A DNA stretch of 64,000 bases, taken from contig OX031062.1 in the NCBI GenBank assembly GCA_943736015.1, forward strand, positions 27,191,462 through 27,255,461, in the 5' to 3' direction. The stretch comes from Tridacna crocea. Taxonomy: Eukaryota; Mollusca; Bivalvia; Cardiida; Cardiidae. Position 1 is the first letter of the stretch. Each line of letters opens with the position of its first letter. The position numbers and the translations under genes were made by a program. Below are positions 19,501 through 62,106 of the stretch, piece by piece. The notes beneath the pieces are model-generated. The model did not search any database and was not told the DNA's origin. It saw only the letters and a list, made by a program, of their open reading frames with translations.

Positions 19501-22500
19501 AACTCTAAAAAAAAGTCTGATAATACTGGCTTTTTTACTTTGAAAGGTATGCCTTGTACAAAAATTTAAAGTTAGAATTTACAAAAGGCAATAACCCCAA
19601 ACATAGTTGAGTTATGGTTCTTGTACACTAAATCTAAAGGTAAATTTTATGTAGGACAATAACTTTAAAAAATATTGGAATAGAGTTATGGATATTGTAT
19701 ACTACATAAATTATCTGTTTTATGTGACTTATCTGTTTTATGAAGTTTGAAGTCAGTAGCTTTTTATACTTTGGAAGGTTTTTTGCTGGAAAAAATATTT
19801 GAAGTTAAAATATACAAAAGGCAAAAAAAACCCAAACAGTTGGGGTAGAGTATGACTCTTGTTCACTGTACTTCTACATTAAATTAGTGATCTGTGTGCA
19901 AATTTGAAGTAACTAGATTCTATATTTTCAAAGTTATGCCCAAAACAAAAACCCAGAGTTATAATTTACAAAGGGCAATAAATCTAAACAAGAGGGCCAT
20001 GATGGCCCTGTATCGCTCCACTGGCTAATAGGTAAAAAACAGTTCAAGCCAAATATTACATTATTTGGCCAACTGGTTTCAAACTTGAGCTCATACAATT
20101 TTTTTTTTTTAATAAAATCCTACGAGAAAGTTGTGACATCCCCCCCGGCAAACCCAATTTTTGACCGCAAAGCTATAATTGCTTGAATCCTGGTGGATGT
20201 CTATAAGATAAAGCCCCATACCAAATAATACAGGTCTAGAATGTGTAATTATAAACAAGATTTTCAAAGTTTTCTCAATAAAAGGCCCTGTAAAACATAA
20301 AACCCATGAGAAAGGGCTAAATTTAGTGGCCCTAGTCTTTATTATGGTTAGTAACAAGATGACTTAGAAAGTTTTCACCACAAAAGCCCTCGTAAAACTT
20401 GTCACTCCTGGACTGGGGACAAACTTGACCCTGGGGCTATAATTTTGGCCATCCTGGTAAAATAGATAAACCTACATGCAAAATTTGGTAGCCCTAGCCC
20501 TTATGGCTAAGTACAAGTAGATTTTAAGAAAATTCCCAATATGAGCCCATGTAAAACTTGTCACCCCCAGGGAGGGGCCAAATTTAATCCAAGGACTATA
20601 ATTTGGGCACTTTTGGTAGAAAACCACTTGATAAAGCTAGATGCAAAATTGTGTAGCCCTAGGCCTTATGGCATGGTACAAGAAGATTTTTAAAGTTTTC
20701 CCTAAATAAGCCCATATAAAACTTGTGACCCCTGGGCTATCATTTACGCACTTTTAGTAGAGGTCCACTAGATAAAGCAACATTCCACATTTGGTAGCCC
20801 TAGGCCCTATGGCTAGTTAGCAGAAGGATTTTTAAAGTTTTCCCCATATAAGCCCATATAAAACTTCTGTCCCTCAGGGCGGGGCCAATTTTGAGCCTAG
20901 GACTTGGTAGAAGTCCACTCGATATAATTACATGCCAAATTTGGTAGCCCTAGGCCTTATGGTTTCAGAGAAGAAGATTTTTAAAAATCTTCAAAATTTA
21001 TCACTTTTATTGCCATGGCAACCTGAGTTTTTGAAGGAATCAAATTCTTTCAAGTAATTCTGAAGAAGACCATGGCAGGATCATTTCTGTGAAGTTTCAT
21101 CAAAATTGGATGAATATTTTCAGAGAAGATGATGTTTGAAATAAAAGTTAATGCATGCACGGACGCACAGACACTGGGCCATGACATAAGCCTGCTGGCC
21201 TTCGGCCAGTGGAGCTAAAAATGTAGGAATAGTGTTATGGTTCTTGTAAACTGGACTTCTCCTAAATGTGGCCTATCTGTAACTGATGTCTGAAGTCACT
21301 AGCTTTTTTACTTTGGAAGTTTGCCCTGGAAAAAAATTCCACCTTAAAATTTACAAAGGGCAATAGCCAAAAATAAATGGGATAGAGTTATATGTTTTTG
21401 AAGTTTCCACCTTAAACACTTCCTAAGTTAAGCCCAGGACAGAAAAAGTTGAAGTTTTCAAAGAGGAATAACTCTATATAAAGTAGAAATAGACTTTTGG
21501 TTTTTCTACACTGCACTTTTCCTGAATTTGGCCAAACTGTATATGAAGTTTCAAAAATACTAGCTCTTTTACTTTGGAAGTTATTCCTTGGACAATATTA
21601 AGTTAAAATTTTCAAAGGGCAATAACTTCAAAAATAGTTCAGGTACAGTTAGGCTTTTTGTACATTACACTTCTTTATTATGTGATATATGTGTGTGTAA
21701 AGTTTGAAGTTACTGGTTCCTATACTTTCAAAGTTATGCCTTGGAATTTAAAATTTACAAAGGGCAAAAACTCTGAAAATACTGGGAATAGAGTTATATT
21801 TCTTGTACACTGCACATCTGCCTAACGCGACTTATCCAGTGATGCATCCAGAAACTTTAAAAAGTGTGGCACATACCCTCTCACTCTAACAAAAAGGGGA
21901 CACTCTAATCTAAAAATGGGGCAACTAATTTTTCTTTGAGAAAATGAAAGGAATAATTGGTTAGGTAAAATGAGTGCTACAAAAAATTTGCATTTTTTCT
22001 GACGCATCCTACAACTCATACAAACTGCAGAGTTTTCACTAGCTTTTTATTTCAAGCTGTAATTCTCGATAAGATTTTATACTAGAGTGTATGACAATAA
22101 TTATGGTTCCCAACTATGCAATCCATATGGATGATCTGCAGCAAAAAGTCTGTTAAATTGAGATATTTTTGTGCATTTTCTGCTTAAAATCGTTTAAAAA
22201 AGGCACCATGAAGTGACTCTGATTGGACAATGACAGACATTTAGTTGTGCCATGGGTTTCCATGTTTTTTTTTAACCAACCAATGTTTCATGCCTGTTAA
22301 TTTCTAGGTAAGTATTTCTTCATGACTTGACACAAATTTGTCAATGAGGGTAACAAGTAATTAAAATCAAAGTACTGATAGTACTGAAGGCCAGGAAATT
22401 GAGGATACGAAACAACACAAGAGGTCAATTTTAATTAATACAAACAGGTAGACGGACAGGGATACAAGCAGATTCCACTAAGCCCCCGGAATTCTTGGTT

Positions 22501-25500: not shown

Positions 25501-28500
25501 GACATTAAGTGCCCTTTTTTCATAACATGGATTTGCATGGATAAAAAACCAAGGGCACAATCTGAAACTTTTAACAAGAGGGCCATTGGCCCTGGAATGC
25601 TCACCTTGGACTATAGTTTATGAGTGAAATTCAATTCTTTGAACAACTTTGGTAAAGCTTCACCCAAGGAACATCCCTGCAAAGTTTCATCAAGATTGGC
25701 CCAGTGGGTTAGAAGAAGATGTTTAAAGAAATTGTTGACGGACGACGGACATAGGGCGATCACAATAGCTCACCTTTAGCACTTCGTGCTAAGGTGAGCT
25801 AATAAACAATATAAATGTCAAGTTTCATTAAATTTTGATGAAAAAAGTAATATTAGAAAACAAGTTGTTTTTTATTTCAACAAGGCTAAGATTTTGCTAT
25901 CTAGAAATGGTTAAGAAGCATGCTACCTGAATGATGGGGGCTGTTTATGTTTCATCCAACAACATAATATTCTCTGCCAAGGAACCATATGGCAAAGAAG
26001 TAATATGTTAGCATTATGACCATGTATTTCATACAAAACTCGATTTAGATAAGATTGTTGAAAAAGTAAAGCAGATTGATTTAGTTCATTGTACAAATAT
26101 ACACATTCACTAGACTCTCCTGCCTTCAGCTGTTAAAGTATACATGAATGGCATGCAAAGATTTTTCTTAACTCTTTACCACACAATCCCAACTTTTAAC
26201 GACCCTGAGAACGAAGGCCCTTGAAAACATTGTGGGAAAAGGAGAAAATGCTGGTAATCAGCATTTTCTCCTTTTCCCACAATGTTTTCTGTCCTTTCTA
26301 AATCAAATTTCAATTTTTGATTCCCATTTATTTTGTCTTCTGCAAATGCTTTTAGTTTGGACTAGCCTAAAATTTTGTCATTTAGTAAAGGGTTAATACT
26401 ACAATGATCAAATAAATACTGTGTGCAACTATATTCTAATTATATTAAAAAAAATAGTTGTTGCTGTTGTTGTGGTGGTGGTGGTGGTGGTGGTGATGAT
26501 GTTATTACCTGCAAGATCTATGTCAGCATCAGTTGCTCCAACTTTTCCAATGGATGTATGAATAGCTGTACTCTCATCTATGTTTATGTTATAAACTGTC
26601 TGAGTAAAGACTGGGTCATTGTCATTCACATCTGAAAGCAAAAAACTTTTCTCGTCTTGTAGACTGAAAAGCCTTTATTGTTTATATCGTCACCTAACTC
26701 TACCTGTTACTGCACAAGGCTTTTAATTTTAAAAAATCTGCTTTCATCTACTTGTATGTTTATATTAAGCAGAATACAATATTTCAGCCTTAAGTTCAGG
26801 TTCACACATATGAGCTATGCTCATGCAAAAGGAGGCTAACGCATCTCTGTGATACATGATATTAGGAAAGTCATCATATAATTATTGATCCATAATAGCC
26901 ACTTTTTTAGACAACCAACTCAGTCATAAGGTAGAGTGGTCCTTTGGCATACAGAAAAATAAAATTGACCCATGGCGAAAAGCCCCGGCCCATGTCAGCC
27001 TGCATAGATTGTACATGCTAACCTGAGTTGATACTTTTTGCAGGTGCATCAAGACCCCTATTCACATAGCTCATATGTATTTGTGGTTGCAGCAGGTCAT
27101 TTTAATGAATATTGGCAGATTTGTTATCATAATGGCAGTCAAGATAGTTGTATAGACTTTTTTTCTTTGGTCAGTTTCCCTATCAATTTCTCATGTTCTC
27201 CTCTAGAGATTTTCTCTCTCCTTTAGAGATTTCCTCAGCCACAGATTCTATCTAGGATACATGCTTAGCTGGGTCTGAGCATTTGTTGTAGATCTATAAA
27301 GTTTTTTAGACAATACCATAATGTAATCAGAGCACAGAGTAATACTTCATCATTCATCTGCCACCCTTGGTAAGAAGTCATTATGCCTTCGACCTACACC
27401 TACCAGACAACATCAGAGGAATGAGCACCAGTGACACTATTCTTTAAAACATTCACCCATTAGAAAACATTACTGATAAGACTCTTGAACAACAGTAATA
27501 AACAGCCCTTTCCCAAACGACGAATTTTAGACTCTTCCAAACTGAAAGAGTTTGCAGACAACAATTTAAAATTTGACGAAAATGGTAAAAAACTCTTATA
27601 AAGGTAAGAAAACACTGTGGGAAAAGGAGAAATTGCTTGTTATGAGCAATTTCTCCTTTTTCCACAGTGTTTCCAAAAGACTTGTACTTCAGACAATTAA
27701 AAACCAGGACTTGTTTGGGAGAGGGTTAAGGAAAAGAGAGTAATTTGCTGTTAATCCTTTACTAAATCTTTCTGAACTTTAAAACCCCTCAGGAAGAAGC
27801 CTTTAGAAAAAGTTGTGAGAAAAAGAGACCCGCAGTTTTCTGGTCTATCAAAGACAAATTCCATCATTTGAGCCACAATTGTTGTCTGGAAATGTTTTTA
27901 ATGTTGAGGGGTCTAAATAGTTGTCATGTGGTAAAGAGCCAATACAAGCACAACATTTGGTCTATGGTTTCCTTTTTTTTTGTTACTTTTTCTGTTTTCA
28001 CACTGTGGTGAAAGATTCTGTTTAGTATAATCTTAAAGAAGAAGGCTTTTGATACCAGTTTTTGTTTTTAATTTTCCACTACCCTTTCTACTGTTTCAAA
28101 GACTAATTCCATATGTCTTCTGCAAGTTGATATAAGTTACCAGCAACTACAGTACTTTCAATACATAGGTATCTGAAATTTCGTTGTCTAACAAAGACTA
28201 AAGGTAGCTTGTATGATAATGGGCTAAATACTTTTACAACTGAAAATGTATGAATACAACCTGAGATTGATACAGTCATTGTTGTAGTGGTAGACAAGGC
28301 AGATGGAGTTGTTCCCATGTCAGAAACAAGAATGACCAACTGGTAGGAATCTGTGTTTTCCCGATCAAATGTCACAGTAGTGGTTATCTCCCCAGTGTTT
28401 GAGATGGAATATTCTCCACCTAGAACATACCATTATGAAGTATTTTCATTCACACAGGAATCATGACAAAAGGATAGAGCATTACATGTTTTAATTCTTT

Positions 28501-31500
28501 ACCACATCATCCTGACTTTTAACGACCCTTAAATAGGAAACATTTGAAAACAGATAATCTAATAAAATTATAGTTACTTTTGTGATATATATAAGTGAAA
28601 ATCAGACTAAATTACAAATTTTTCTGTATCCAAAGCATTTGCAGACAAGAAATATGACATTGCTCCAGGAATTGAATTTTTTCTCCTTTTTTTTTCACAA
28701 TATTTTCAAAATACTTTCTCTGTAAGGTTGTTTAAAATCAGGATTGTGTGATTGATGGTTAAGAAGAATAAGTGGAGAGGATTTCATGAGGACTCTTTTA
28801 CAGGGAGTTTCCTCTAATTAATCAATTATGTAGCTTAAAGCTAAAGTTCTTATCAACCATATTTTTCGTGCATGATGCTCAAAGAAAGCTATTTGTGTTT
28901 TTAAAATCATACCAAACTTAAAAACTAGAGCTGTCACTGAATATGACTTAATACCCCTGCCAGCACTTCGACAAGAACAGGCAATTTAACAAAACAAATT
29001 CTAAGTTCAAGGGGAGATTACCCTGTAATCATAGGGAGTAGATGACTGAAACTTACGTCTAGCACAACTTCAGTTTACGATCAATGTATCAACAAGCAAT
29101 TTCATTGAAATGATATCCCCCGCCGAAAAAGACCTTTTTTGATACAAACGTATAAGAGGTATTGTGTTTTGCATGTACATGTGGCCTTTTTGTTATTGGT
29201 CCATGATGAAATTATACATTAAGCTCCCTTGTTCCATGGCACAGGATTTCATTACATAAAACAAGAGGGCCATGATGGCCCTGAAATCGCTCACCTGAGT
29301 TCATTGACCAAACATGAACCATCTAGTTTCCCAGTGACCTAGTTTTTTATCAGACATTACCCATCATCAAACACTTTTGAGATATCAATAAGACAAACAT
29401 TCTGGCCAAGTTTTATGAATATTGGACTGAAAATGTGGCCTCTACAGTGTACAAAAGGTTTTTCTAAGATTTCATCAAGTGACCTAGTTTTGGACTCGAC
29501 AATTACCCATTATCAAACTCTTTTGAGACATCACCAAAACAAACATTCTGACCAAGTCTGAAGAGTATCAGGCAGAAAATGTAGCCTCTAGAGTGTACAC
29601 AAGGTTTTTCTAATATTTGACCCATTGAACTAGTTTTTGACTCCACATGACCCATTTTCAAACTCATTCAAGGTATCACCAGGACAAATATTATGAACAA
29701 GTTTTAGGACTATCAGACTGAAAATGTGTCCTCCAGAGCATACAAAAGGTGTTTATAACATTTGACCTATTAACCCAGTTTTTGACCCAACATGACCCAT
29801 TTTCAAACTCATCCAAGATATTATAAAGGCAAACATTCTGACTAATTTTCAAGAGTGTTGGACTGAAAATGTGGCATCCAGAGCATATACAAGGTTTTTC
29901 TAAGATTTGACCTGGTGACCTAGTTTTTAACCTCCAATGACCCATTTTCAAACCTGTCTGACCAACTTACAAGAGTTTCGGACTGAAAATGTGGCCTCTA
30001 GAGCCTACAAAAGGTTTTTCTAAGATTTGACCTAGTGACCTAGTTTTTGACCCCCAATGACCCATTTTCGATCTTGTCCGAGATATCATCCAGGCAAACA
30101 TCCTGACCAACTTTCATGAGTATCCGACTGAAAATGTGGCCTCTAGAGCGTACAAAAGGTTTTTCTAAGATTTGACCTGGTGACCTAGTTTTTGACCCCA
30201 CATGACCATTTTCAAACTCGTCCGAGATATCATCCAGACAAAGATCCTGACCAACTTTCATGAGTATCCAACTGAAAATGTGGCCTCTAGAGCGTACAAA
30301 AGGTTTTTCTAAGATTTGACCTGGTGACCTAGTTTTTGACCCAACATGACCCATTTTCGAACTTGTCTGAGATATCATCCAGACAAACATCCTGACCAAC
30401 TTTCATGAGTATCCAACTGAAAATGTAGCCTCTAGAGCATACAAAAGGTTTTTCTAAGATTTGACCTGGTGACCTAGTTTTTGACCCCACATGACCCCTT
30501 TTCCAACTCGTCCGAGATATCATCGAGACAAACATCCTGACCAACTTTCATGAGTATCCGACTTAAAATGTGGCCTCTAGAGCGTACACAAGGTTTTTCT
30601 AAGATTTTACCTGGTGACCTAGTTTTTGACCCCATGTGACCCATTTTCAAACTCGTCTGAGATATCATCCAGACAAACAGCCTGATTAACTTTCATGAGT
30701 ATCTGACTGAAAATGTGGCCTGTAGAGTGTACAAAAGGTTTTTCTAAGATTTTACCTAGTGACCTAGTTTTTGACCCCACATGACCCATTTTCAAACTCG
30801 TCCGAGATATCATCGAGACAAACATCCTGACCAACTTTCATGAGTATCCAACTGAAAATGTGGCCTCTAGAGCGTACACAAGGTTTTTCTAAGATTTGAC
30901 CTAGTGACCTAGTTTTTGACCCCACATGACCCATTTTCGAACTCGTCCGAGATTTCATCAAGACAAACATCCTGACCAACTTTCATCAGTATCCGACCAA
31001 AACTGTGGCCTCTAGAGCGTACACAAGTAAAAAGTTGATGACAGACGACGCACACCGCACGACGGACGACGGACACAGCACGATCACAATAGCTCACCAT
31101 GAGCACTTCGTGCTCAGGTGAGCTAAAAATATAAAAGAGGTCCATAACAGGATTATACATTAAGTACCCTTTTTGCAGAACTTGGCATTTCATAAAAGTT
31201 GGAGATACACTGACAAAAAATTAAATTTGACATGAAGTCCCCTTTTTCCATGATACAGTGATAAATTGCAAAACCCGGACTACATGTGCTAGGTCGCATG
31301 ATCTGTGAAAATCTCGTCCAAATCTGTTGAGATATGTCCAGTAATTAAAGAGATACAGGTGAAAAATGAAAATATAACATGAAGCTCCCTTATTCCATGA
31401 TGCAGCTACAAATCCGAAAACCTTGAAAATATGCCGTAGGTCACATGATCGTGTGAAAATTCCATCCAAATCTGCCAAGAAATGTGGGAGGCGTTGTGTT

Positions 31501-34500: not shown

Positions 34501-37500
34501 TGGTGTGTTGTCATTAATGTCTGTTACTTGTACATTCACTGTCACTGTTGCTGTTAGAGAAGATGTGCCCCCATCTGCAACCTCAACTATGATAGCATGA
34601 AGAGTTTCACTCTCATAGTTTAAGGAGTTTGTCAGTCTAAGAGCTCCTGATGTGTCTACCGCAAACAATGTTGTTGTCCCGACACCATTCACTTGTGTTA
34701 TAGTGTAAGACAAAGCAGCATTGCTGCCAGTATCAGAATCGTTGCAGACCAGGTTTGCTAAGGTTGTGGGTGTGGTAGTGTCTTCTGCAAAGCTAACAGT
34801 CTGTAATAAAGGTGTGCAAATAGGTGCATTATCATTTACATCTGTGAATGCAACAATAACTGAGGTTGTTGCAGTCTGTGGGGAACCACTTCCATCTAAT
34901 GCATTGATAACAAGGGTATAGGGATTGACACTTGCCGTTTCAAAGTCAAGTTCAGCTTTCACTGTGATATCTCCAGTTGAACTATCTATCTGAAATTTGT
35001 TGTCTACATCTCCACTAGCAATTGTGTATATTACGGCACCTAAAACAGAAAGAAAAATTACAGACATTCAAGTTGACTTCTGGATTAACCATTTATCTCC
35101 TGATAACCTTTGCATCAGACTAATTTGACTGTATCCTTGTAAATTAAATATAACCAACATGAAGGAAGGTCCATGAACCCTTTACCACACAATCCCGAGT
35201 TTTAACAACACTGTGAAAGAAGCCTATTGAAAGTATCATGGGAAAAGGAGAAAATGCTGGTTACCAGCATTTTCTCCATTTCCCACAATGCATTCTACCC
35301 TATCAAAGGCAGAAATGATCATTCGAGCAAAATATATGAATTTTTGTTCTCAATTGTTTAAATTCAGACAAGTCTTTTTTTTTCCATTTGGTAGAGAGTT
35401 AATAGACAAGTACTATGAAGATACTATGACAAACACATGCATGTCAGTAGGGCTCCGTACCGGTACTCGATATATATCGAAAACCGGTATTTTACGTTCG
35501 ATAGATATATCGGATCGAACGTTTCTGTATCGAACAAAATATCGATCATCAAAAGAAAGTAAAAGTAAAGCATATAAATACCAAATTTAGTTGTTTTTAA
35601 CGGCGAAATTCATTACGAGTTTACTTTAGGTAATCTCTAAAGTCGAGTAGTCGTAGAGGTAGGTGTGGCTACCTGGGAAACTTACAACCAATCGAAATGC
35701 GTCATTCTTTATTACTCGCCCTGTACCCGTTACACAATGGATGACAATTAGCTAATACCCCTATTCTCGTTCCCCCGTCATGTTGTTTGAAATCTGCAAA
35801 TTATGCATCAATCAGCAGATTGCAGACAAATTTACGCTGATAATTGGTCAATATAGTTGATTAAAGAAAGGTAATGACTAATGAACATCTCGTGATGTGA
35901 TCGAGAGGTAGCGATGGAAATAATTGAAGCCGTGACCTTTCAACCGTCCTAAGATTTTATTTGGTCGATCTTTTAATATTGCCGAAAAATGTGGCTCGAA
36001 AATCAAATCTCTTTTTCCATTAGATTATCTGAAATCAGTGTTCCGACTCGCGTAAATTATTGTGTAAATCATTTTATAGACTTGAAATTTGCATAACAAA
36101 TGTTAATCGCACGCGAGACTTCACGTAAGAAAAAACATGAACAAAAAAGGCCATTATCTGTTTATCGTGAGTAAAATGACAGGTTTTGATGTTACATGTA
36201 GCTCTAATCCTTATTGAGAAATCTATGTCGAATCATGCGAACATACCTATCCAGAAATTAACACGCATGAAAAATTGTTCGGTGAAAAAAAAAAACCACG
36301 GAAACCCATGACACAACAAAATGTCTGCTTGACATTGTCCGATCAGAGTCCTCATAGACTTTCTTTTCAGCTTTTTAATGAGTAGTAAATATAGATCTAG
36401 TTAGAATTCATATTAATTTAGGCCTACATAATTATGAAATTTCAATACAATCTAGAAGTGTTAAATTTGCGGTATTTTGTTTTTCAGGTATGCTGAAAAA
36501 GAACAAACACAATTTTCGCATTTTTTTCTTTCTTTTATTGAAAATTGAAATATCATATGATATATCGAATATCGATCATTTTGTATCGATACAAATATCG
36601 TATCGATCAAACTGACCGATACGGAGCCCTACATGTCAGTGACCTACTTTTTGACCAATCTAACCCTTTTTTTGAACCTTTCAAACATTACATGTAGACA
36701 AACATTCTGACCATATTTCATAAGAATCACACTGAAAAATGTGGCCTCTAGACTTCACACAAGGTTTTTCTAAGACTGGTTCTAGTGACCTACTGTTTGA
36801 CCCAACATGCCTGAATTTTGAACTTGTGTGATATATTATCATTAAAAAGAATATTACAATTTTTTCATGAGTATCTGGCTAAAAATGTGGGCTCTACAGT
36901 GCAAACAAGGTTTTTCTACACTGGACCCAAAGATCTACCTTTTGACCATACTGACCTTACTTTAAACTCTTAACAGATATTATTAAGAAAATCATTCCTC
37001 ATTTCATAAGTATCTGGCTGAAATGTGGCCATAGAGTGCACAAAAGGTTTCAATACAATATGTCCCAGTGATATTTTTTTACCTGACATGACCTAGTTTT
37101 TAACTTCGTACTAGATGTCATCAAGACAAGCCTTTCAAAATAAGTTTGACGAGTATCAGACTATGACCTCTTGAGTACAGATTTTTCTGAAATTTGTCCC
37201 AGTTCTTATTTACCTGATGTAGCTGAATTTCCAACTTGTTCAACACATCATTAAGACAACCTTTTTTCCAAATTTCATGAGTATCAGACTGAAAATGTGA
37301 CCTTTAGACTCCACACAAAGGTTTTTCTGAGATTTGTCCCAGTGACCATCTTTTCGACAAGAACCAGTATCAAGCTTGTCTGAGATACTATTTAACCCAT
37401 TACTACATAATCCCTACTTTTGAAGCCCCTGAGAAAGAGGCCCTTAGAAAACATAGTGGGAAAAGAAGAAAATGATGGTAACCAGCATTTTCTCCTTTTC

Positions 37501-40500
37501 CCACAGTTTTCTACCCTTCACAAAACAAATATAAAATTTTCAGTCACTTTTATTTTGTTGTCTGCAAATGCTTTTGATTTGGACAAGCTTAAAATTTTGT
37601 TGTTTGGTAATGAGTTAAGACAAACATTCTGACCATCTTTCATGATTATCTGGCTGAAAATGGGGCCTGTAGAGAGCACACAAAGTTTTGTCTAAAGTTT
37701 GGCTGAGTGCCTTCCTCTTTGAGAGAACATGACCCAATATAAATGCTTTCCAAAATATTTTCAAAAACATATTCTGAAAGAAATTCGTAAGTATCAGACT
37801 TAAAGTGTGGCCTCTACAGTGCACAGGGTGTTTTTTTTAAAGATTTGTCCAAGTGACCTCACCTCCTTTTTGGTTCAACATACCAATTCTCAAATTTGTC
37901 CAAGATGTTATCTAGACAAAGATTCTGACCAAGTTCATGAGCACTGGACTGAAAATATGGTCTCTACATTGCACACAAGGTAATTTCATGACAGCAACAG
38001 TTGTTTGTTGTTATATTCAAGATTATGCTAAAACATGCCTATTTGCACACATTGTGTGTGGTAAAAACAGAACATTACCATTATTTTCTGCGTCAGCATC
38101 TGTAGCACTGACAGATCCAACAACTGTTCCTACACTGATGCTTTCTAATTGGTTGAAATTGTATGGATCTGTCGCAAATGAGGCTATGTTGTCATTTTCA
38201 TCTGAAAGCAAAAAAAAACAATGTTTGTTAAGTAGTAATTAATTTAGCCTGATCAAATTAAGTACCAGTATAATTTAAGCCTATCTACAAATCTCAGATA
38301 ATCAGAATATATCTAAGAACCTAATCAAAACAAGACGGGTTATGTTCCCCAAACAAGTGCTTGTCATAAAATATATAATATTGATATAAATTCACTTCTT
38401 TTATCCTAAAAGAACCTGTTCATGCCCCCAAAAATTTGAAGTGAAAAGACAATTACTATCTTAGAGATAGCCAACACAAGCTTGTAGAGGACAATAAGCC
38501 CAATAAGCCCCCTTTAAGCCCCCTTTTCCCATAAGATAATATTGGATCATTGAAATAAATACAACAGGTGTGTGGTTTGTGGCATTTTTGAATAATAATT
38601 CAAAATTCGAAACACATTGCACATTGATGACAACAGAAACAACAGCAAAGACAACAACACTAGAGCTATGGCAATAGCTTGTTGTTTCCTTCGAAAACAG
38701 TCAAGCTAAAAATTCTATCAAAAATTATAGTTGAGTCCCAAAACATTTTTCTAGCTCAAGTCTATAACTGCACTGAGTCCTGAAATCTACTAAAATGAAG
38801 TCTTGTATTCTTAGGAAAATATAATACTCTTGTATTCTTAGGAAAATTTAAGAGCACATGATGTGGGATGTGTAACAAAACAAAAAAGGCCATGATGGCC
38901 CCGTATTGCTCCACTGGCAAATAACTAAAATCACAAAAAGCGAAACATTACAATGCTTGGCCAATAGATTTCAAACTAGCAGACATGCAATTTTTTTTTC
39001 TATAAAATCCTACTAAAAAGGTATGACCTCAGGGCAATATTCATTTTTGATCACAAAGCTATAGTTACTTGAATCCTGATGGACGTCCACAAGATAAAGC
39101 TGCATACAAAATAATACAGGTCTAGAATGTGTGGTCTCCTCAATAAAAGGCCCTGTGAAACATAAGACCCCCGAGACAGGGCTAAATTTAGTAGGTTTTA
39201 TGGTTAGTAACAAAAATATCTTTGAAGTTTTCACTGCAAGAGCCCATGTAAAACTTGTGACCCCTGGGGTCTAGAAAAAGTTGACCACCAAGACTATAAT
39301 TTGGGCCCTCTTGGTGGAGATCTACTAGAGCAAGCAAAATTTGGTAGCCCTAGGCCTCATGGCTAGTGACAAGTAAATTTTTATTGTTTTCCCTATAGAG
39401 GCCCATGTAAAACTTCTGAGGTGGGCCCAAATTTGACCCCATGGTTATATTTCGAGTACCCTTGATAGATACCTTCTAGATAAAGCAATATGCCAGATTT
39501 CATAGCCCTAGGCCTAATCTCTTGATTAGTCTCCGAGTCTCAGGTAAATGTGGGTTCAATTTCTAGTGATCTGATTGACTAAGACAGAAAATTAGATTTA
39601 GATGAATCAGAGAGCTACTTTTGTAATACAGAATTATAACTGTACATGTATACATAAACTTAAAATTCTTGTTTTGTTGTGATAGAAATGTGAAAATGGG
39701 TGACTGGTATATATTTCTGCAAACCTGTTATGATAATAGTTAAAGTTGTAGTTGTTGTCAGAGGGGTAGCTCCAGAATCTGCGACTTCTAACACAAGCTG
39801 ATAATTATCCAAAGTCTCTCTATCCAGCATTGCATTGACTGTAATTTCTCCTGAGACTGACACTGTGAAAGCATTTCCTGAAAATACACAAGAAGGATAG
39901 GAAAGCATAAGAAAAATGACACATGCAAGGTCTGTCCTACTCTACAAAAGTTACTTGATATTTTCAGTATCAAAAAAATAGGCAAGGCTCAAATATCCAA
40001 AGACCCTCGGGGAAGTCTTGTCATGAACTGATCTGATTGTAAAAATTAAACCTACCATAGTGACTGATGCATTGACCTGCCCTGTTTTCAAAGAACTTCA
40101 TTCTTCAGTTTGCATCCATAACTTTGCAGGGATATATTTAAATTCACCTGCTGCATACTCATATGTTTCATGCCATGAAAAGTCTAAAATTCTCTGGTAA
40201 CCCTAACATTATCATTAGCCATTTACAAAACAACAGCATTTTTTATCAATCCAATTTGAAAGCATTTGCAGACAACAAATCACATGTGGCTCAAATGCTG
40301 CAATATGTGACTGACAGAGAAGAAACATTGTGAGGAAAGGAGAAAATGCTGGTAACAAGCATTCTCTCTTTTTCCCAAACTATTTACAGAATACCTTTTT
40401 CTCAGGATGTACAAATAAGGAATTGTCAGGTAAAGGGTTAAGTTTTGCATTCCGTTCTGTTGTCAAAGTCTAGCCAAAAAAGTTCACTGATAGCCAGAAA

Positions 40501-43500
40501 GTGAAAATGTAAAACCTCATATTGCGTATGTGATACATGGCCAGCTAAATTCAAGACAATGCAAACTATCGCAATATATACCAAATAAGAGGACCATGAT
40601 CATCTTATATCACTCACAAGATTGAAAGATTAAGTAAAATTAAGTACATTTTCTTCTTTCTATACACACATACCCCTTGGATCGAAGTGCCAGGGCAAAC
40701 ATTAGCCCCTAAATCAATAATACAGCCTACACATTAGCACCCCCCTCCCCTGGGTCAAGATTAAATTGCCCACTGTCAGACCTCCAATGTATGTTCTGTT
40801 AAACTATGATTAGATTTGTTGAAAAAACTAGACCTATGATAAGAGGGTGAGATCTTGTGGCCATATATACTTTGACTAAGTTTCGTTCAAATAGCTTAAT
40901 ATTTGTGGACGCTGGACTGTAAACATCAAAGTGTGGTTCACACAATGAATGACAAACATTCAACCATCCTAATAGTTCAACATGATGACTGTGGTCAGGT
41001 AAGCTAAAGGAGAAATTGCCCACAGTGAGCAATTTCTCTTTGCCATAAGGTTTCCATTGAAACCCATGGATCAAATTTGTGTCGACTATCCATATTTTTA
41101 CAGTAGTCTGCTAGAAACATTTGATGTACCTGTGTTGCCACTTTTAACACTGTATGATGTGATATCATTGTTGGGTGGTGTGGCATCGCTGTCCGAGCAT
41201 GTTAACTGGGCTACTGATGTGGAAACTGCTGAAGACTCTGATACACTGGCACTATAGATAGTCTGTGTACAACTAGGAGTGTTGTCATTTTCATCTGTTA
41301 TATCCACGGTCAGGGTGTATGTTGCTGTTTGGGCAACTATAAATAGATACATGTGAGACAGAGCACCTGTATAAAGCACACACGTGCTCTTTCAGAGACA
41401 ACTGTTAAGAACCTTAATCCCTTTTCATATTAACTCATTACCAAACGACAATATTTTAGGCTTGAACAAATCAAAAGCATTTGCAGACAACAAAATAAAA
41501 GTGACTGAAAATTTGGATTGTGTTTTGTGAAGGGTAGAAAACATTGTGGGTAAAGGAGAAAATGCTGGTTACCAGCATTTTCTCCTTTTCCCACAATGTT
41601 TTCAAAAGGCTTCTTTCTCAGGGTATTCAAAAGTAGGGATTGAGTGGTAATGGGTTAACCTAATTGAAATTTGCATTGAAAGACCAGTATTTTCTCAGCT
41701 TTCAACAAAATTTCATACCTTTCCATTATACAAATCTGATCATCTGAGCCACAGTTGACTTGTAGTCCACTGGAGCTAGCAATACAAACAAGTTTAATTT
41801 TTGACTCTCATTTATCATCAATTTTTTTTTCCTCCTCCCACAAGCTGATAAGGTTTTCAAAGGTCTTCTTTGTTAAGGCTGTTAAAACTTCGGATTGCCT
41901 AATGAAGAACTAAATGCCAAAATATAAAATGGATGTATTTACTTAGCTGGAAAAGAGACAGACATTCCATTTTTTTCTTTGGTAGGGATCCTTCCATAAA
42001 ATATTTGATACTGTATTTCTTTTCTTGGATGGTATATGTTTCAGCATTGTTTGTCATCACTTTTTTAACCTTATTACTGGTACTGTGTGATATATATTCC
42101 ATCTTTCAATATCACCATATTCTATCTGTTCCTTATAGGCAAAGTCATTATACATGGTGGGCCCTAAAAATCTGTGCGGTTTCCAAGGTCTTATATCATT
42201 AATGGAAAATGATATTTTGTATTTATTTTCAAGTGAAAAAATATATGTATACACTGTAGCTGCAAGTTTATATCTCGGAAAACAGTTTTCAGCCTAGAAG
42301 CAGATCAAAATCACTACAAACTCCCCTATTCTCCTCCAAAGACAATTTTGAAGTGATTTCCCTTGGTAGGAAATACCATCAGAGTCGTTGTAGAGAAGCT
42401 AATAGAAACTAGTACTGAGAGTACTGTGCAACAATAGAGGCCTCACTAGCCAATCTGTGATAGCAACAAATCAAACTCATGTAAAGAAGGGCTCATTTGC
42501 AAATCAATGCTAAGTCCACCTCAACACTGTCACAAGAAGTGGGGGTTTCTTGTACAACTGATAAAACTTCTCAATGGTATTGTAATTGGGACTTTTCCTC
42601 CTTGGGAATATATGTGAAATTGCCTGCAGACGATTTTGTAGCAAAGTAGTATTCTACAATTTTGATCTGCTCCTGGGCTGAAAACTGTTTTTCAACATCC
42701 ATTTTACCACCTGATAAAACTGACAGCTACACTCTTTCACTTTCCTGAGAACAGAAACAAAATATTCCATGAAAAAGATAAGACTTTGAAACTGCACTTT
42801 TTTTATGGCCCACCATATATTATTTTACCTCTTACTACACATGTAAAATTTACACTCATCCAGATCCAAAGTATTTGCAGATTACAGTTGAATCTCTGAA
42901 GAAGTAGGCTATTGAAATATTGTTGGAAATTCAATCGGTAGTTTAATTTCTTTTAGTAAGAACACTTTGAAAAAATTGTGGTAAACGGAGAAAATGGTGG
43001 TAACCATCATTTTTTTCTTTTACTACAGCATTTTATACCCTTTTAAGATTTGTTACCACTTTCAGTTTTTGAGTCAGATAGATGCTGTCTGCTGCAAATG
43101 CTTTTGAACTGGACAAGTCAAAATTTTGTTGTGTTGTTATATTCTATAATTCATGTCATATTTAACTCTTTCCCACACAAGCCCTGGCTTTTACGTGTCT
43201 GCAGTACAAGTCTGCAGAAAACACTGTGCAAAAATGAGAAATTGCTCATAACAAGCAATTTCTCCTTTTCCCACAGTGTTTTCTAGCCTATCGGAAAAAT
43301 TTCTGCCATTCTCATCAAATTCAAAATTGTCATCTGCAAAGGCTTGAGTTCGGGACAGTCTAAAGTTTGTCATTTGGGAAAGGGTTAAACGTACATAATT
43401 TTATTTAGACATTTTGGAGAGATTATGTCTTATATTTATAAGACTAGATATAACATTGTATCCTACCTATGTAAATCAAATCCCACATTATTATTACTGA

Positions 43501-45842: not shown

Positions 45843-45873
<31 letters not shown>

Positions 45874-55892: not shown

Positions 55893-55977
55893 CTGAAAAT
55901 ACAAAAAAGATTTTAATGAAGTTACAGAGGATCATATTTTATTTGCATATATACCAGTGGAAACAACATCAAGCTGC

Positions 55978-58265
55978 TTAACTCTTTACCAAAAAAAAAA
56001 AAACTTTAGGTTTGTCCAAATTGAAAGCATTTGCAGACAACACAATAAAATGACTGAAAATTTGAAATTTGTTTTGTGAAGGGTAAAAAACATTGTGGGA
56101 AATGGAGACAAGAGGGCCATGATGGCCCTGAAATCGCTCACCTGAGTTTATTGACCAAACATGCACCATCTAGTTTCCCAGTGACCTAGTTTTTTATCAG
56201 ACATTACCCATCATCAAACACTTTTGAGATATCAATAAGACAAACATTCTGGCCAAGTTTCATGAGTATTGGACTGAAAATGTGGCCTCTACAGTGTACA
56301 AAAGGTTTTTCTAAGATTTCATCAAGTGACCTAGTTTTGGACCCGACAATTACCCATTATCAAACTCTTTTGAGACATCACCAAAACAAACATTCTGACC
56401 AAGTCTGAAGAATATCAGGCAGAAAATGTAGCCTCTAGAGTGTACACAAGGTTTTTCTAATATTTGACCCATTGACCTAGTTTTTGACTCCACATGACCC
56501 ATTTTCAATCTCATTCAAGGTATCACCAGGACAAATATTATGAACAAGTTTTAGGAGTATCAGACTGAAAATGTGTCCTCCAGAGCATACAAAAGGTGTT
56601 TATAACATTTGACCTATTGACCCATTTTTTGACCCAACATGACCCATTTTCAAAGTCATCCAAGATATTATAAAGGCAAACATTCTGACTAATTTTCAAG
56701 AGTGTTGGACTGAAAATGTGGCATCCAGAGCATATACAAGGTTTTTCTAAGATTTGACCTGGTGACCTAGTTTTTAACCCCCAATGACCCATTTTCAAAC
56801 CTGTCTGAGATATCATCAAGACAAACATTCTGACCAACTTACAAGAGTTTCGGACTGAAAATGTGGCCTTTAGAGCCTACAAAAGGTTTTTCTAACATTT
56901 GACCTAGTGACCTAGTTTTTGACCCCACATGACCCATTTTCGATCTTGTCCGAGATATCATCCAGACAAATATCCTGACCAACTTTCATGAGTATCCAAC
57001 TGAAAATGTGGCCTCTAGAGCGTACAAAAGGTTTTTCTAAGATTTGACCTAGTGACCTAGTTTTTGACCCCACGTGACCCATTTTCGAACTCGTCCGAGA
57101 TATCATCCAGACAAACATCCTGACCAACTTTCATGAGTATCCGACTGAAAATGTGGCCTCTAGAGCGTACAAAAGGTTTTTCTAAGATTTGACCTGGTGA
57201 CCTAGTTTTTGACCCCACGTGACCCATTTTCGAAGTCGTCCGAGACATCATCCAGACAAACATCCTGACCAACTTTCATGAGTATCCGACTGAAAATGTG
57301 GCCTCTAGAGCGTACAAAAGGTTTTTCTAAGATTTGACCTGGTGACCTAGTTTTTGACCCCACGTGACCCATTTTCGAACTCGTCCGAGATATCATCGAG
57401 ACAAACATCCTGACCAACTTTCATGAGTATCCGACTGAAAATGTGGCCTCTAGAGCGTACAAAAGGTTTTTCTAAGATTTGACCTGGTGACCTAGTTTTT
57501 GACCCCACGTGACCCATTTTCGAACTCTTCCGAGATATCATCCAGACAAACATCCTGACCAACTTTCATGAGTATCCGACTGAGAATGCAGCCTCTAGAG
57601 CGTACACAAGATTTTTCTAAGATTTGACCTGGTGACCTAGTTTTTGACCCCACCTGACCCATTTTCGAACTCGTCCGAGATATCATCAAGACAAACATCC
57701 TGACCAACTTTCATAAGTATCGGACTCAAAATGCGGCCTCTAGAGCGTACACAAGGTTTTTCTAAGATTTGACCTAGTGACCTAGTTTTTGACCCCACGT
57801 GACCCATTTTCGAACTCGTCCGAGATATCATCGAGACAAACATCCTGACCAACTTTCATGAGTATCCGACTGAAAATGTGGCCTCTAGCGCGTACACAAG
57901 GTTTTTCTAAGATTTGACCTAGTGACCTAGTTTTTGACCCCACATGACCCATTTTCGAACTCGTCCGAGATTTCATTGAGACAAACATCCTGACCAACTT
58001 TCATGAGTATCCGACCAAAACTGTGGCCTGTAGAGCGTACACAAGGTAAAAAGTTGACGACGGACGACGCACGACGCACGACGCACGACGCACGACGGAC
58101 GACGGACGACGGACACAGCACGATCACAATAGCTCACCATGAGCACTTCGTGCTCAGGTGAGCTAAAAATGCTGGCTACCAGCATTTTTTCCTTTTCCCA
58201 CAATGATTTCTAAAGGCTTCTTTCTCAAGGTCGTCAAAAGTAGGGATTGTGTGGTAATGGGTTAA
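55978..58265 (-). mobile_element. MITE-A copy 37, split by an alpha element
   Basis: Left part 55978-56108 ends GGGAAATGGAGA and right part 58167-58265 begins AAATGCTGGCTACC. Joined, they restore a normal MITE-A core. TTAA at both outer ends. Confidence 0.92.
56109..58166 (+). mobile_element. Helitron-like alpha element 2 with 145-bp tandem array (2,058 bp)
   Basis: Same termini as alpha element 1: CAAGAGGGCCATGATGGCCC and GCTCACCTGAG at 5'; GAGCAC-TTC-GTGCTC and AGGTGAGCTAA at 3'. There are about 13 units of 145 bp. The 5' units are diverged and the 3' units nearly identical. A short GACGGACGACGC run precedes the 3' end. The boundaries are exact because the element interrupts MITE-A copy 37, and no target duplication is evident. 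Non-coding. Confidence 0.88.
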
Positions 58266-58507
58266 ACAGGCATGGTCTACTTAATTAAAGTTTTCAAACT
58301 AGCCTACTACAGTTTTGCATCCTAAAGCTCTAATTTGTGCTTTCTACTTTCATCAGAAACATCTAAACAGAAAGATAGGAGGGCCATAGGCCCTAAAGAG
58401 CTCAAATGAGTCAAGTCAACTAAGGTCGATAAAGTTGAAGATGGTGACGCAAACACATGATGATAAGTGCCTACTTTTTATCCAGTGTAACCCGTTTTCA
58501 ACCTCCT

Positions 58508-58637: not shown

Positions 58638-58981
58638 AATCTCAAATGATAAGCACAAATTCATGTACCAAAGACTAAAGAGTTAATACCTCAAAGGAGT
58701 ACATGTACTTTATATGAAGAAAACAAAATCTTAAAATGAAACATGTGTTACACACAAAAATATCTTTGTGAAAGGGGAAAAAACTCCTACAGAATCAAAA
58801 GTAGGCATCTAAAAACCTGTGTCATTCAAATTTACTGTTTTTTTATTAATCAACAACGTATATAACAATTTTTCCTAATGGATAGATTTTGTTAAAACTT
58901 TGCACACAAACTGAAAAAAGATGTAGTTCACCATGCTGATTTCTGAGAAATTAGCCTTTGACAAAGGTATTTTTCATACTA
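58638..58981. other. Nothing recognised
   Basis: AT-rich sequence upstream of the first visible exon. No cadherin motif is seen on either strand. Confidence 0.4.
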
Positions 58982-60714
58982 GGCTAAGGCCCAGATCAAA
59001 AAAGGGCTCTATTTTTAATTTTTTTTCAATCCATCTGGTAGAAAAATTCAAATGGTACAGTGATTTAGGATAGCCTATTAGGGTCACTTTAAGCATGGAT
59101 GCCAGATCTGACAGTGGTGCAGATTTTTTTTATATGCTAATAAACGCGCCTACCCCAAATTTGCCTATAACAAAAATTAAACTTTTCCTATGTTCACAAT
59201 AATGGAAAAAAAACAATGAAACAATGCAATCTTTTTGACAATTTTTTTGAATTTAAGATGCTCATAAAAATCCACATTTGCCTGTATGTAAGACTTTTAT
59301 TAAATCAAGTCTGACCAATTTCACATACCGTAAAACACCTAATAAATGTTCCTAGCAGAAATGAATAGAAAACAATCTCTGAATTTCAGTCTTCACATTG
59401 AATGTGTTAATATTTCTGGCTAGATTTTTTCACAGTTTTGGCTAGAGCTACTAGGACAGACATGGAGGACCAGAATTAAGAACAGTTATGGAGTTTTAGC
59501 ATTTAGCACCTCAAAAATGATCTATTTATGAGTGCAACAGTATAATATGTTGTTGCACACTGACCTTTGATTTCGTTATTTCACAACTGTAACCATAAGT
59601 ATGCCAACACTATGATTTGGCTATTTTCATTAATTAAGCTGCTTTATTTCCTTTGTTATTCTAAGTCTCCTACTCTATTAATCTATTTCACTGATAAAAT
59701 AGGGGATATGACTTGAAGCAATAGGGTCATGATGGCCCTGTATCGCTCCACTGGCTAATAAGTAAAAAAACTACAAGCCAAACATTATAGGCTAAGGCCC
59801 AGATCAAAAAAAGAGCCCTATTTCTATTTTTTTTTTTTTCAATCCATCTGGTGAATTAGGATAGCCCTTTACATTCACTTTAAGCATGGATGCCAGATCT
59901 GAAAGTGGTGCAGACTTTTTTTTATATGCTAATAAACGCGCCTACCCAAAATTTGCCTATAACGTAATTTAGACTTTTCCTATGTTCACAAAAATGAAGC
60001 AGACAATGATACAATGCAATCTTTTTCACAAATCTTTTTAATCTAAGGTGCTCATAAAAATCCACATTTATGTAAGACTCACAATGTATATTAAATCAAG
60101 TCTGACTAATTTCACATACCATAATTCACCTAATAAATGTTCCTTGCAGAATTAATTGGAACCAATCTCTGAATTTTCAGTCTTCACATTGAATCTGTTT
60201 ATATTTCTAGCTAGATTTATTCACAATTTTGCCTAGACCTACTAGGACAGACAAACAGGACAAAAGTCAAGAAAACTTACTGAGTTATAGCATTTAGTAC
60301 CTCAAAAATGATCCATTTATGAGTGCCACAGTATAATTTATTGCTGCATACTAACCTTTGATTTCGTTATTTCATTATATATTCATGTCCAACCGTAAGT
60401 ATGCCAATACTAAGATTTGGATATTTTCATTACTTAAGTTTCTTTATTTCCTTTGTTATTTTTACTCTTCTATTCTGTTACTCTATTTCACTGATGCAAT
60501 AGGGGACATGACTTGAAACAAGAGGGCCATGATGGCCCTGTATCGCTCCAGTGGCTAATGAGTGAAAACACAACAAGCCAAACATTACAAATCCGGCCAA
60601 CAAGTTTCAAACTTGAAGACATACAATAGGGTAAGGCCCAGGTCAAAAAAGGCCCTATTTTTTCATCCATCTGTTACTTTAGTTCACTGATGCAATAGGG
60701 GATCAAACTTAAAA
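58982..60714 (+). repeat. Stacked direct repeats ending in beta 5' termini
   Basis: Two units of about 808 and 839 bp (starting GGCTAAGGCCCAGATCA at 58982 and 59790), then a third truncated unit from 60629. Each contains ATGGATGCCAGATCTG and TGCTAATAAACGCGCC blocks and ends with a beta 5' terminus (GGCCATGATGGCCCTGTATC). Only the last continues into a full beta element. Confidence 0.7.
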
Positions 60715-62106
60715 CAAGAAGGCCATGATGGCCCTGTATCGCTCCACTAGCTAATAAGTGAAAACACTACAAGCCAAATATTACAACTCTGGCCAATTGG
60801 TTTTAAACTTGAAGGCATACATTTTTTTTCTATGAAGTTCTACGAGAATGTTATGACCCCTTGACCCCTGGGCAATGCCTTTTTTTACCACAAAGCTATA
60901 ATTACTTGAAACTTGGTGGAGGTCCGTAAGATAAACTTCCATATTACATAATATAGGATGTGTGGTATACCAGAAGGTTTTCAAAGTTTCCTAAAATAAA
61001 TGCCATGTAAAACATGAGACCCATGAAACAGGGCTAAATTTGGTAGCCCTAGGTCTTACTATGGTTCGTAAAAAGATCACTAAAAAAGTTTTCACCACAA
61101 AAGCCCAGGTAAAACTTGTGACCACTGGTGTGGGGACAAACTTAACCCCAAGGCTATAATTTAGGCCCCTCTGGTAGAGGCCCACTATATAAAGCTACAT
61201 GCAACATTTGGTAGTCCAAGGCTTTGTGGTTATGTACAAGTAGGGGTTTTCCCAATATAAGCCAATATAAAAATTGTGACCCCCGGGGCCGTGCCAAATT
61301 TGACCCCAGGGCTATAAGTTGGGTATCCTTGGTTTACGCCCACTTGTTAAAGATACATGCCAAATTTGGTGGCCCAAGGCCCTATGGCCCGCCCTGGTGG
61401 CTCAGTGGTGATCGTGTCGGAAACATGACCTGATGGTTGTGAGTTCGATACCCGGTTGAGGTGAACTTTCTTTCCGACGTATTTTCCCCTCTCACGTCTG
61501 CTGAGGCATGTGAGAAAAATAGTCGGTGGCTATGGAAAGAAAGCTTAGTACTGGTGTGAGAAAACCAGGAAACGCATGTGCGTCACCGACCCCCATGATA
61601 TGACCTTAGCTGTTGAAGTAGTGTTAACTGTTAAACCCCAATGCAACCAACCAATTAACCAACCAACCAAGGCTCTATGGCTAGGGATCAGAAGAATTTT
61701 AAAATTTTACCTATATAACCCCATATATAACTTGTGACCCCCCCCCCAGGGGTCAATTTTGACTCCATAGCTATTATTTGAAGGAACACTGTAGAGGTTC
61801 GCTACATAAAACTACATGCCAAGTTTGGTAGCCCTCGGCCTTATGGTTTCGGATAAGAGGATTTTCGAAGGTTTTCAATATTTTTCAGTTTTGTTGCCAT
61901 GGCAACCAGAGTTTTTAAAGGAATCAAATTCTTTCAAGAAATTCTAAAGAAGGCCACGGCAGGATCATTTCTGTTAAGTTTCATCAAAATTGGATGGGTA
62001 GTGTCAGAGAAGATGTTTGAAATATAAGTTAATGCACGCATGGACAGACGCACAACGGACACCGGGCTATGACATAAGCGCGCTTGCCTTCAACCAGTGG
62101 AGCTAA
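60715..62106 (+). mobile_element. Helitron-like beta element, complete but diverged, with nested SINE
   Basis: 5' end CAAGAAGGCCATGATGGCCC, then GCTCCACTAGC. 3' end TTGCCTTCAACCAGTGGAGC then TAA, with a weakened hairpin. It is 1,392 bp, of which about 293 is the SINE and its duplication. Confidence 0.7.
61388..61666 (+). mobile_element. tRNA-derived SINE
   Basis: The left part has an A-box-like TGGCTCAGTGGTGATCG and a B-box-like GAGTTCGATACC at tRNA spacing. The tail is (AACC)n. It is flanked by a 14-bp direct repeat CCAAGGCYCTATGG (61374-61387 and 61667-61680, one mismatch), the signature of LINE-driven insertion. By family knowledge it would be transcribed by RNA polymerase III. Confidence 0.85.

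Follow-up and report, generated by a model that had tools for sequence, protein, structure and literature searches.

Elements in the window

The window analyzed here, a stretch of 64,000 nucleotides from Tridacna crocea (contig OX031062.1, positions 27,191,462 to 27,255,461), contains five two-ended elements together with relics and solo ends. By the Helentron/Helitron2 convention these elements lie on the minus strand: the hairpin ending in CTAA is their 5' end (TTAG, an inverted repeat [ATIR] and a local hairpin), and the stretch CAAGAGGGCCAT...GGCCC is their 3' palindrome. An earlier reading, made from the letters of this DNA only (the sequence-only reading), had rightly recognized Helitron-like elements with such ends, all five of which carry an exact 5'-3' complement of 8-11 nt, but had assigned 5' and 3' in reverse of published usage. 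A motif search of the window found CAAGAGGGCCAT exactly at positions 19989, 25575, 29262, 56109 and 60519; with up to two mismatches allowed there were 13 matches, as against 3.3 expected, and 13 or more were reached in none of 100 shuffles.

The alpha family is represented by two complete elements. Element alphaA (29262..31126, minus strand, 1865 bp), a non-autonomous Helentron-type element, has both ends and central tandem repeats with a unit of about 145 bp (29333..31027). Its 5' ATIR, GCTCACCTGAG (31113..31123), sits 3 nt from the 5' terminus and forms part of the 5' hairpin, the loop of which is GAA; its 3' ATIR, CTCAGGTGAGC (29289..29299), stands directly ahead of the 3' palindrome and is a perfect complement to the 5' copy; and the palindrome AGGGCCATCATGGCCCT with the terminus CTTG (29262..29283) is the stretch previously taken for a 5' motif. 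Element alphaB (56109..58166, minus strand, 2058 bp) has a microsatellite adjoining its 5' hairpin (58056..58123; GTC-type on the minus strand), and its host site is a palindromic repeat, empty copies of which occur elsewhere in the window.

Among the beta elements, betaA is complete (19989..21218, minus strand, 1230 bp), with the 5' ATIR GCTCCACTGGC at 21205-21215, the 3' ATIR at 20015-20025 and central repeats near 20613-20985. Element betaB (CAAGAAGG; 60715..62106, minus strand) is decayed, with its 5' ATIR at 62093-62103 and a 3' ATIR that matches at 9 of 11 positions at 60741-60751. The fifth, which we call the short element (25575..25802, minus strand, 228 bp), is alpha-like over its first 66 bp and beta-like in its interior; its 5' ATIR, GCTCACCTTAG, is at 25789-25799 and the 3' copy, a 10/11 match, at 25599-25609. 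Central tandem repeats are found in both alpha and beta, the unit in the window elements being 145-150 bp. In all five elements the 5' ATIR lies 3 nt from the terminus; the 3' ATIR lies 28-38 nt from the 3' end, and the palindrome 5-21 nt from it.

The remaining pieces are also on the minus strand. Two extra beta 3' ends (59719 and 60519), repeated with flanking DNA between them (59719..60714), each lack a 5' end. A beta relic (38883..39529) has kept its 3' end and lost its 5' end, an alpha-like relic split by a palindromic repeat (36637..37994) has lost both, and a second alpha-like relic lies at the edge of the window (2..831). There are, in addition, a solo 3' end with the ATIR variant CTCATTTGAGC (58376..58410), for which no partner 5' end was found within the window, and a weak and decayed solo 3' end (40586..40630).

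Complementarity between the two ends

The longest exact 5'-3' complement is 11 nt in alphaA, alphaB and betaA, 9 nt in the short element and 8 nt in betaB. When the 3' ends were shuffled (2000 times), the observed length was reached 0 times for alphaA, 1 for alphaB, 0 for betaA, 3 for the short element and 5 for betaB; at 5000 random places in the window it was reached 6, 4, 7, 31 and 73 times, respectively. The proposal that the alpha motif is the exact complement of the other end is thus borne out in both alpha copies, and the corresponding proposal for beta stands for betaA but not for the decayed betaB, for which almost no hairpin is predicted. Between alphaA and betaA, four of the 11 ATIR positions differ, each matched on both sides, so that cognate ends pair at 11/11 positions and non-cognate ends at 7/11. 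The outer GCTC is constant in alpha and beta, and the variation lies farther inward.

The short element was held to be a third case, and this stood only in part: its 9-nt match includes one added compensated position, but the next position is mismatched, eight of the nine paired bases are common to alpha, and its 5' ATIR matches its own 3' end (10/11) no better than that of alpha (10/11). Instead of three different sequences, the window holds nearer two and a bit.

Genome copies and family linkage

These small protein-less rolling-circle transposons are present in many thousands of copies in the genome, with ends that differ by family and are matched within each family. Exact searches of the genome returned 5,175 3' ends and, for a further family, gamma, 3,328 3' ends; exact 5' hairpin ends numbered 9,898 (alpha/gamma-type), 3,082 (beta) and 1,038 (short-type), and the backwards controls gave no matches. 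A short-type 3' probe gave two matches, the form of the palindrome probed probably being wrong. Separate delta and zeta families received little support: delta, defined by CTCGGGTGAGC 3' ends, was found 29 times, in most cases as alpha altered at a single position, and zeta (CTCATTTGAGC) is represented by one exact copy with the searched palindrome.

On one contig we rebuilt 69 elements from end coordinates (37 alpha-alpha, 32 beta-beta and none crossed; Fisher p 2e-20), and a shifted control gave 47 partners in 2,540 trials. The covariation between ends for which the sequence-only reading proposed to test genome copies is present at family level on this contig, and we found neither of the outcomes that it held would count against it, namely many copies without complementarity or consistent target duplications. 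Of 23 gamma 3' ends, 15 meet a 5' end whose loop is AAC. No partner was found within 4.5 kb for 21 of 63 alpha and 35 of 67 beta 3' ends, decayed ends escaping lists of exact matches, and the ends of one element (L143) match poorly, at 6 of 11 positions. The family linkage is due in part to common descent: zero crossing is also expected if each family descends from one ancestor, and independent matched changes therefore remain few. Within single copies, one-sided ATIR changes were seen in 2 of 40 alpha pairs and 2 of 32 beta pairs, none of them compensated.

We judged the matches outside the source genome to be due to chance. Viral contigs gave 0, 4, 0 and 7 matches and prokaryotic contigs at least 120 stretches; a downstream 9-mer complement, the sole layout feature compared, accompanied 9 of 125 viral (the set of 4) and prokaryotic matches and 0 of 7 in a further viral set. 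Of four element strings sought in the literature, one or more occurred in 60 papers, and the 20 that were listed contained only the short motif aagaggccca.

Hairpins, predicted folding and the recognition of ends

A 5' hairpin is predicted in alphaA, alphaB, betaA and the short element. The two motif copies near CTAA combine, both in alpha and in the short element, into a single longer hairpin whose one-base bulge falls at a similar position in the two, and beta lacks the outer pairs, the betaA hairpin having its inner six pairs only. Predicted energies (kcal/mol) for the hairpin and the end duplex, respectively, are -16.0 and -15.9 in alpha, where the two states are near-equal, -7.5 and -17.2 in betaA, and -14.8 and -12.2 in the short element. 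When the two ends were joined by a linker, the predicted fold was local for alphaA and the short element and end to end for alphaB and betaA. By eye, the local partners in delta and gamma show a bulge at the place of alpha's plus one mismatch.

Mini-hairpins with a GAA loop are described as very stable (PMC4686876), and four of the seven GAA-loop hairpins in the window with a stem of at least 6 are closed by C-G, these four being the element 5' ends. Where all lists are complete, the loop is GAA in 15 of 17 alpha pairs and AAC in 15 of 17 gamma pairs; beta loops are GAA in 68 of 100 and AAA in 24 of 100, and short-type loops are AAA in most. We rejected the idea that every such hairpin has a GAA loop, since AAC, AAA and further loops are common genome-wide.

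To our knowledge, the biochemistry of Helentron/Helitron2 end recognition is not settled. The Rep/helicase of an autonomous relative would nick at the 5' hairpin, peel off one strand and then have to recognize the true 3' end; that end might be marked either by the 3' ATIR, if it displaces the imperfect local partner of the 5' ATIR and pairs with the latter, or by binding of the 3' ATIR to the Rep surface that also binds the 5' copy. A lineage with unmatched ends would stop moving, such that active lineages would stay matched and dead copies would drift freely.

The sequence-only reading took the matching as a sign of selection for end-to-end pairing, and in that form the argument is not supported. 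Base-pairing is not the only process that would leave matched inverted ends, because a Rep that recognizes one motif at either end would produce an identical pattern: the two ends could be inverted copies of one binding site, both of which follow when Rep specificity shifts, without any pairing of strands. This explanation, which competes with the pairing step and not with the class assignment, predicts identical family-level matching; the constant outer GCTC with inner variation is what a protein site might show, and the local hairpin of the short element is predicted to be stronger than its end pairing. Against it, the 5' copy has an imperfect local partner and a perfect distant one in alpha and betaA, which suits a pairing switch better and is not decisive. 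We give the binding-site explanation slightly less than an even chance. The switch itself we offer tentatively, as a rather doubtful possibility: the 5' ATIR might act as a two-state strand switch, its local partner kept imperfect and its distant 3' partner perfect, so that the arriving true 3' end could unfold the 5' hairpin and bring strand transfer to a stop, with family-specific loops tuning the balance.

Class, orientation and insertion sites

The landmarks of HINE elements, as given in the descriptions consulted (PMC4067079, PMC7492417, PMC3627910), are present here (TTAG and an ATIR in a local hairpin, a 3' ATIR, a 3' palindrome and insertion in T runs), and the suggested likeness to Helentron/Helitron-2 ends and to pearl-type elements was well founded. 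We regard the elements as very probably non-autonomous Helentron/Helitron2 transposons (HINE, of the pearl or Cg_HINE type) on the minus strand, with end recognition of the kind outlined above.

Insertion is in T runs, and the minus-strand 3' flank starts with T in all five cases. When the flanks of alphaB were joined and compared with copies of the target repeat, 35 of 40 alignments were ungapped at the junction, with no target duplication; for betaA two of seven were ungapped and the others diverged, and no empty site was found for alphaA, the short element or betaB. Canonical Helitrons (Helitron1), for which the previously assigned orientation would make CTAA a CTRR end behind a 3' hairpin, would account for this sequence after the hairpin in all five two-ended elements; CTAA is, however, the only feature that fits, given that the 5' TC is absent, there is a second palindrome, inverted repeats stand at both ends and the alphaB junction is A/A (T/T) rather than A/T. 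The Rep genes of two autonomous Rep/helicase families, F2 and F3, moreover point away from a hairpin end of this type, which supports the minus-strand orientation and makes Helitron1 very improbable. MITEs of a cut-and-paste (DDE) transposon would likewise be non-coding, numerous and bounded by short inverted repeats, but the clear empty site of alphaB shows no target duplication, apart from an ambiguity of possibly one base, the repeats are asymmetric (3 nt versus 27 nt from the termini) and both ends have hairpins, so that this explanation retains almost no probability.

Autonomous relatives

The genome contains 32 Rep matches. The autonomous partner with alpha or beta ATIRs that had been anticipated was not found in at least 10 kb around seven of them or in 10 kb beside an eighth. 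A Rep/helicase fragment located between complete and partial gamma copies was rejected as a partner, being truncated relative to a gene on another contig and carrying stops. F2 is present in two copies (11.6 kb, 99.8% identical) with OTU, Rep and PIF1 and with an open frame. Its ends are its own: a 12-nt ATIR recurs close to the 3' end as an exact complement, there is a 3' palindrome, and the gene is preceded by a GAA-loop hairpin, which the ATIR adjoins without visibly lying within its stem. F3, of which the 5' end alone was reached, also has a GAA-loop 5' hairpin ahead of its gene. The ends of both differ from those of alpha and beta. For a Helentron proper, the Rep/helicase protein of the partner would carry an AP endonuclease domain; a Pfam search with E-values up to 0.001 detected no endonuclease in the main frames of F2 and F3. 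The end-pairing idea is directly testable by swapping ends in this genome, because several families in it combine high copy number with paired ends of a distinct type, and the two near-identical F2 copies have an end pair of their own.

Comparison with known systems

The analysis confirms a known anatomy in new families and breaks no new ground. According to its description (PMC7492417), Cg_HINE of Crassostrea gigas shares an 11-12 bp 5' subTIR with an adjacent complementary inverted repeat, a GTC-type microsatellite in the left flank, satellite-like central repeats, a 3' subTIR followed by a palindrome, oligo-T targets without target site duplication (TSD), and several families with different modules; the likeness rests on description rather than on end sequences, and here the end pairing was established by coordinates on one contig. 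The pearl elements of oysters and ark shells, later placed in Helentrons, are likewise non-autonomous bivalve elements with central repeats of about 160 bp (PMC7492417), as compared with the 145-150 bp found here, a likeness again of description and not of sequence. HINE-Mo and DINE-1 Helentrons, as described (PMC4067079), share the second subTIR inward of the 3' end, the 3' palindrome and T-rich targets without TSD, and differ in that here no matching endonuclease-bearing partner is shown. FoHeli1 and FoHeli2 of Fusarium oxysporum have GAA between the arms of the 5' hairpin (PMC5148889), as do alpha, beta, the short element of the window, F2 and F3, but they are autonomous and fungal, and AAC and AAA loops are also common in T. 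crocea.

In HINE-Mo the subTIR lies 2-4 nt from the 5' end and 38-60 nt from the 3' end (PMC4067079), and in Helitron2 the ATIRs lie 0-2 nt from the 5' terminus and 20-30 nt from the 3' end (PMC3627910); on these published figures the 3' distance found here is closer to Helitron2. Bao and Jurka (PMC3627910) had published asymmetric inverted ends by 2013, together with compensatory changes that distinguish related families and a model of end pairing, with the 5'-ATIR in the 5' hairpin and the 3'-ATIR upstream of the 3' hairpin, as here. The hosts and sequences described there are different, and the compensatory case is a _CQu family pair, as compared with alpha and beta here (four positions, with copy counts). 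Ends that vary among families and match within each one are a known feature of Helentron/Helitron2 elements, seen in T. crocea at large scale.

Element order and content of the window

Non-autonomous rolling-circle elements occur throughout the window, and their end sequences place them in families (alpha, beta and short in the window copies considered below; gamma is a further family). Read on the minus strand, they have the end order given for HINE, Helentron and Helitron2 elements, in whose cited descriptions (PMC4067079, PMC7492417, PMC3627910) an inverted repeat lies 0-4 nt from the 5' end and adjoins a complementary repeat or hairpin, and at the 3' end a palindrome and a T-rich flank come after the second inverted repeat. 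The window elements begin TTAGCTCACCTGAG... and end ...CTCAGGTGAGCGATTTCAGGGCCATCATGGCCCTCTTG, with one asymmetric terminal inverted repeat (ATIR) at the hairpin end (TTAG) and the other just before the 3' palindrome. The likeness to Helentron and Helitron-2 proposed in the sequence-only reading thus stands, and its strand is reversed: because the published order fits the minus strand, the end it called 5' is the 3' end.

Five elements have both ends: alphaA (29262-31126), alphaB (56109-58166), betaA (19989-21218), betaB (60715-62106) and the short element (25575-25802); there are also relics (2-831, 36637-37994 and 38883-39529) and solo ends (40586 and 58376), all on the minus strand. The start motif has 13 matches in the window with at most two mismatches (3.3 expected; none of 100 shuffles reached 13). 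Exact complementarity between the 5' and 3' ends extends over 11 nt in alphaA, alphaB and betaA, 9 nt in the short element and 8 nt in betaB; depending on the element, runs this long turn up in 0-5 of 2000 shuffles and at 4-73 of 5000 randomly chosen positions in the window. The short element has a mosaic make-up: its first 66 bp resemble alpha and its interior resembles beta, so modules seem to have been exchanged between families.

Three beta 3' ends lie in tandem at 58900-62106, with flanking DNA (module F) in common. This arrangement has 95.7% identity over 3,047 bp to a locus on contig C1 (L152) and is present in part at L145; at L182 module F breaks off at an identical position (GGGCCTTAGCC), where it adjoins a Rep gene. 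The tandem ends may be a composite formed by end bypass, which picked up flanking DNA and then moved; alternatively, they may be a repeat that has been duplicated.

Copies and pairing of ends in the genome

We collected genome copies by exact matching of the ends on both strands of the 1.05-Gb assembly (31 contigs). By strand, there were 2,487 and 2,688 copies of the alpha/beta-type 3' palindrome, 1,674 and 1,654 of the gamma 3' end, 741 and 791 of the alpha 3' end including its ATIR, and 876 and 951 of the corresponding beta end; 5' hairpins numbered 5,005 and 4,893 (alpha/gamma type, with a GAA loop in 1,526 and 1,427), 1,575 and 1,507 (beta) and 495 and 543 (short type). Reversed-sequence controls gave 0 in every case. 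With complements in the window above shuffles and copies in the thousands, the matched ends first noticed in the sequence are a true, well-observed feature.

All ten window loci (the tandem beta ends counted as one) lie on the minus strand (two-sided p ~0.002, calculated by hand), the strand of the large cadherin-repeat frames (Pfam Cadherin; 12446-13747, 16058-18820 and 53567-55039) between which the elements are placed, in introns or between genes. Given the nearly even 3' palindrome counts genome-wide, this skew may be an intron orientation bias or chance.

Each 3' end on C1, among the matches listed, was joined to the nearest correctly oriented 5' end within 4.5 kb (input on C1: 60 of 100 listed alpha and 67 of 100 listed beta 3' ends; 90 of 100 listed GAA-loop alpha and 100 of 100 listed beta 5' ends). 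Among these listed matches we found 37 alpha-alpha pairs, 32 beta-beta pairs and no crossed pairs (Fisher p 2e-20), with 23 alpha and 35 beta 3' ends lacking a partner; twenty shifted controls gave 47 partners, of mixed kinds, in 2,540 trials. That no element joins an alpha to a beta end shows that an element's two ends are passed on together, although the 69 paired elements are not 69 independent tests, because each family is one lineage.

When loops were resolved, the 63 alpha 3' ends listed on C1 were joined to a GAA-loop end (40), another loop on the same stem (2) or none (21); below 9.95 Mb, where the lists are complete, these counts were 15, 2 and 6 (n = 23). Gamma 3' ends (n = 23) were joined to AAC-loop (15), ATT-loop (1) and beta (1) ends or none (6), and other listed 3' ends (n = 51) to beta (13), alpha (2) and other-loop (2) ends or none (34); shifted controls found a partner in 8/230 and 11/230. 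At fetched loci, nine Rep loci excluded, a candidate 5' end could be assigned to 19 of 46 3' ends, and several candidates are chance hairpins; the convincing pairs agreed at 9-11 of 11 positions, with one locus (L143; 6/11) as the exception.

Meaning of the matched ends

AlphaA and betaA differ at four of 11 positions, all four matched at both ends; the short element has one further position changed and matched at both ends, and the autonomous family F2 has a further, unrelated 12-nt matched pair. The matching thus reveals a joint constraint on the two ends. Pairing itself is not demonstrated by matching, because an identical pattern would arise if a protein recognized one motif at each end. 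Single copies on C1, among the matches listed, carry one-sided changes in 2 of 40 alpha and 2 of 32 beta pairs, and none of these pairs has a compensated change. Such changes are expected of immobile copies, and the matching is therefore a property of active lineages.

Predicted energies of hairpin and end duplex are -16.0 and -15.9 kcal/mol for alpha, -7.5 and -17.2 for betaA, and -14.8 and -12.2 for the short element; with the ends joined by a linker, alphaB and betaA are predicted to fold end to end, and alphaA and the short element locally. A switch between hairpin and end duplex would thus be energetically possible; energies and folds prove nothing.

Insertion sites

Empty-site alignments were counted if the joined flanks aligned over 30 bases or more to either side of the junction. 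AlphaB gave 40, of which 35 are ungapped at the junction (its target is palindromic, so the 40 alignments do not all represent distinct places); alphaB therefore inserted without target duplication, save a possible one-base ambiguity, and the consistent duplications that would have spoken against the sequence-only reading are absent there. BetaA gave seven alignments, two ungapped and the remainder diverged, and joined flanks yielded no empty sites for alphaA, betaB or the short element. The minus-strand 3' flank opens with T in all five two-ended elements. The palindromic repeat that alphaB entered, around GTGGGAAAAGGAGAAAATGCTGGT...ACCAGCATTTTCTCCTTTTCCCAC, is very abundant: it occupies ~50 places and 5,249 bases of the window, and also interrupts the relic at 36637.

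Autonomous relatives

The Helitron Rep domain has 32 matches in the genome. F2, read at two places (11.6 kb in common, 99.8% identical), has a single 1,976-aa frame with OTU, DUF6570, Rep and PIF1 domains; its 12-nt ATIR (AGCGAGCAGCGC) lies beside a GAA-loop hairpin, not visibly within the stem, and has an exact complement near the 3' end, followed by a palindrome. A second autonomous family, F3, has the same domains and a GAA hairpin, and in both families the Rep gene is directed away from the hairpin-bearing end. Rep/helicase elements of the kind anticipated as autonomous partners thus exist, and their ends differ: alpha, beta and gamma ends were not seen on F2 or F3 as far as read (for F3, the 5' end).

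At L199 with L205 (contig C17), an F2 3' end directly abuts another 5' end in a head-to-tail tandem, as the rolling-circle model would lead one to expect. At L196 (contig C8) a truncated Rep/helicase fragment is flanked by two gamma elements, one complete and one partial, and a second complete gamma copy lies further on; the fragment is broken, and we do not claim it as a gamma partner.

Comparison with known elements

The 3' inverted repeat of the window elements, 28-38 nt from the end, is near the 20-30 nt given in the published description of Helitron2; the HINE-Mo repeat is placed further in, at 38-60 nt. The modules are identical in kind to those described for oyster Cg_HINE families (PMC7492417). 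The feature is thus of a known kind: ATIRs, compensatory changes and the end-pairing model were already set out by Bao and Jurka in 2013 (PMC3627910).
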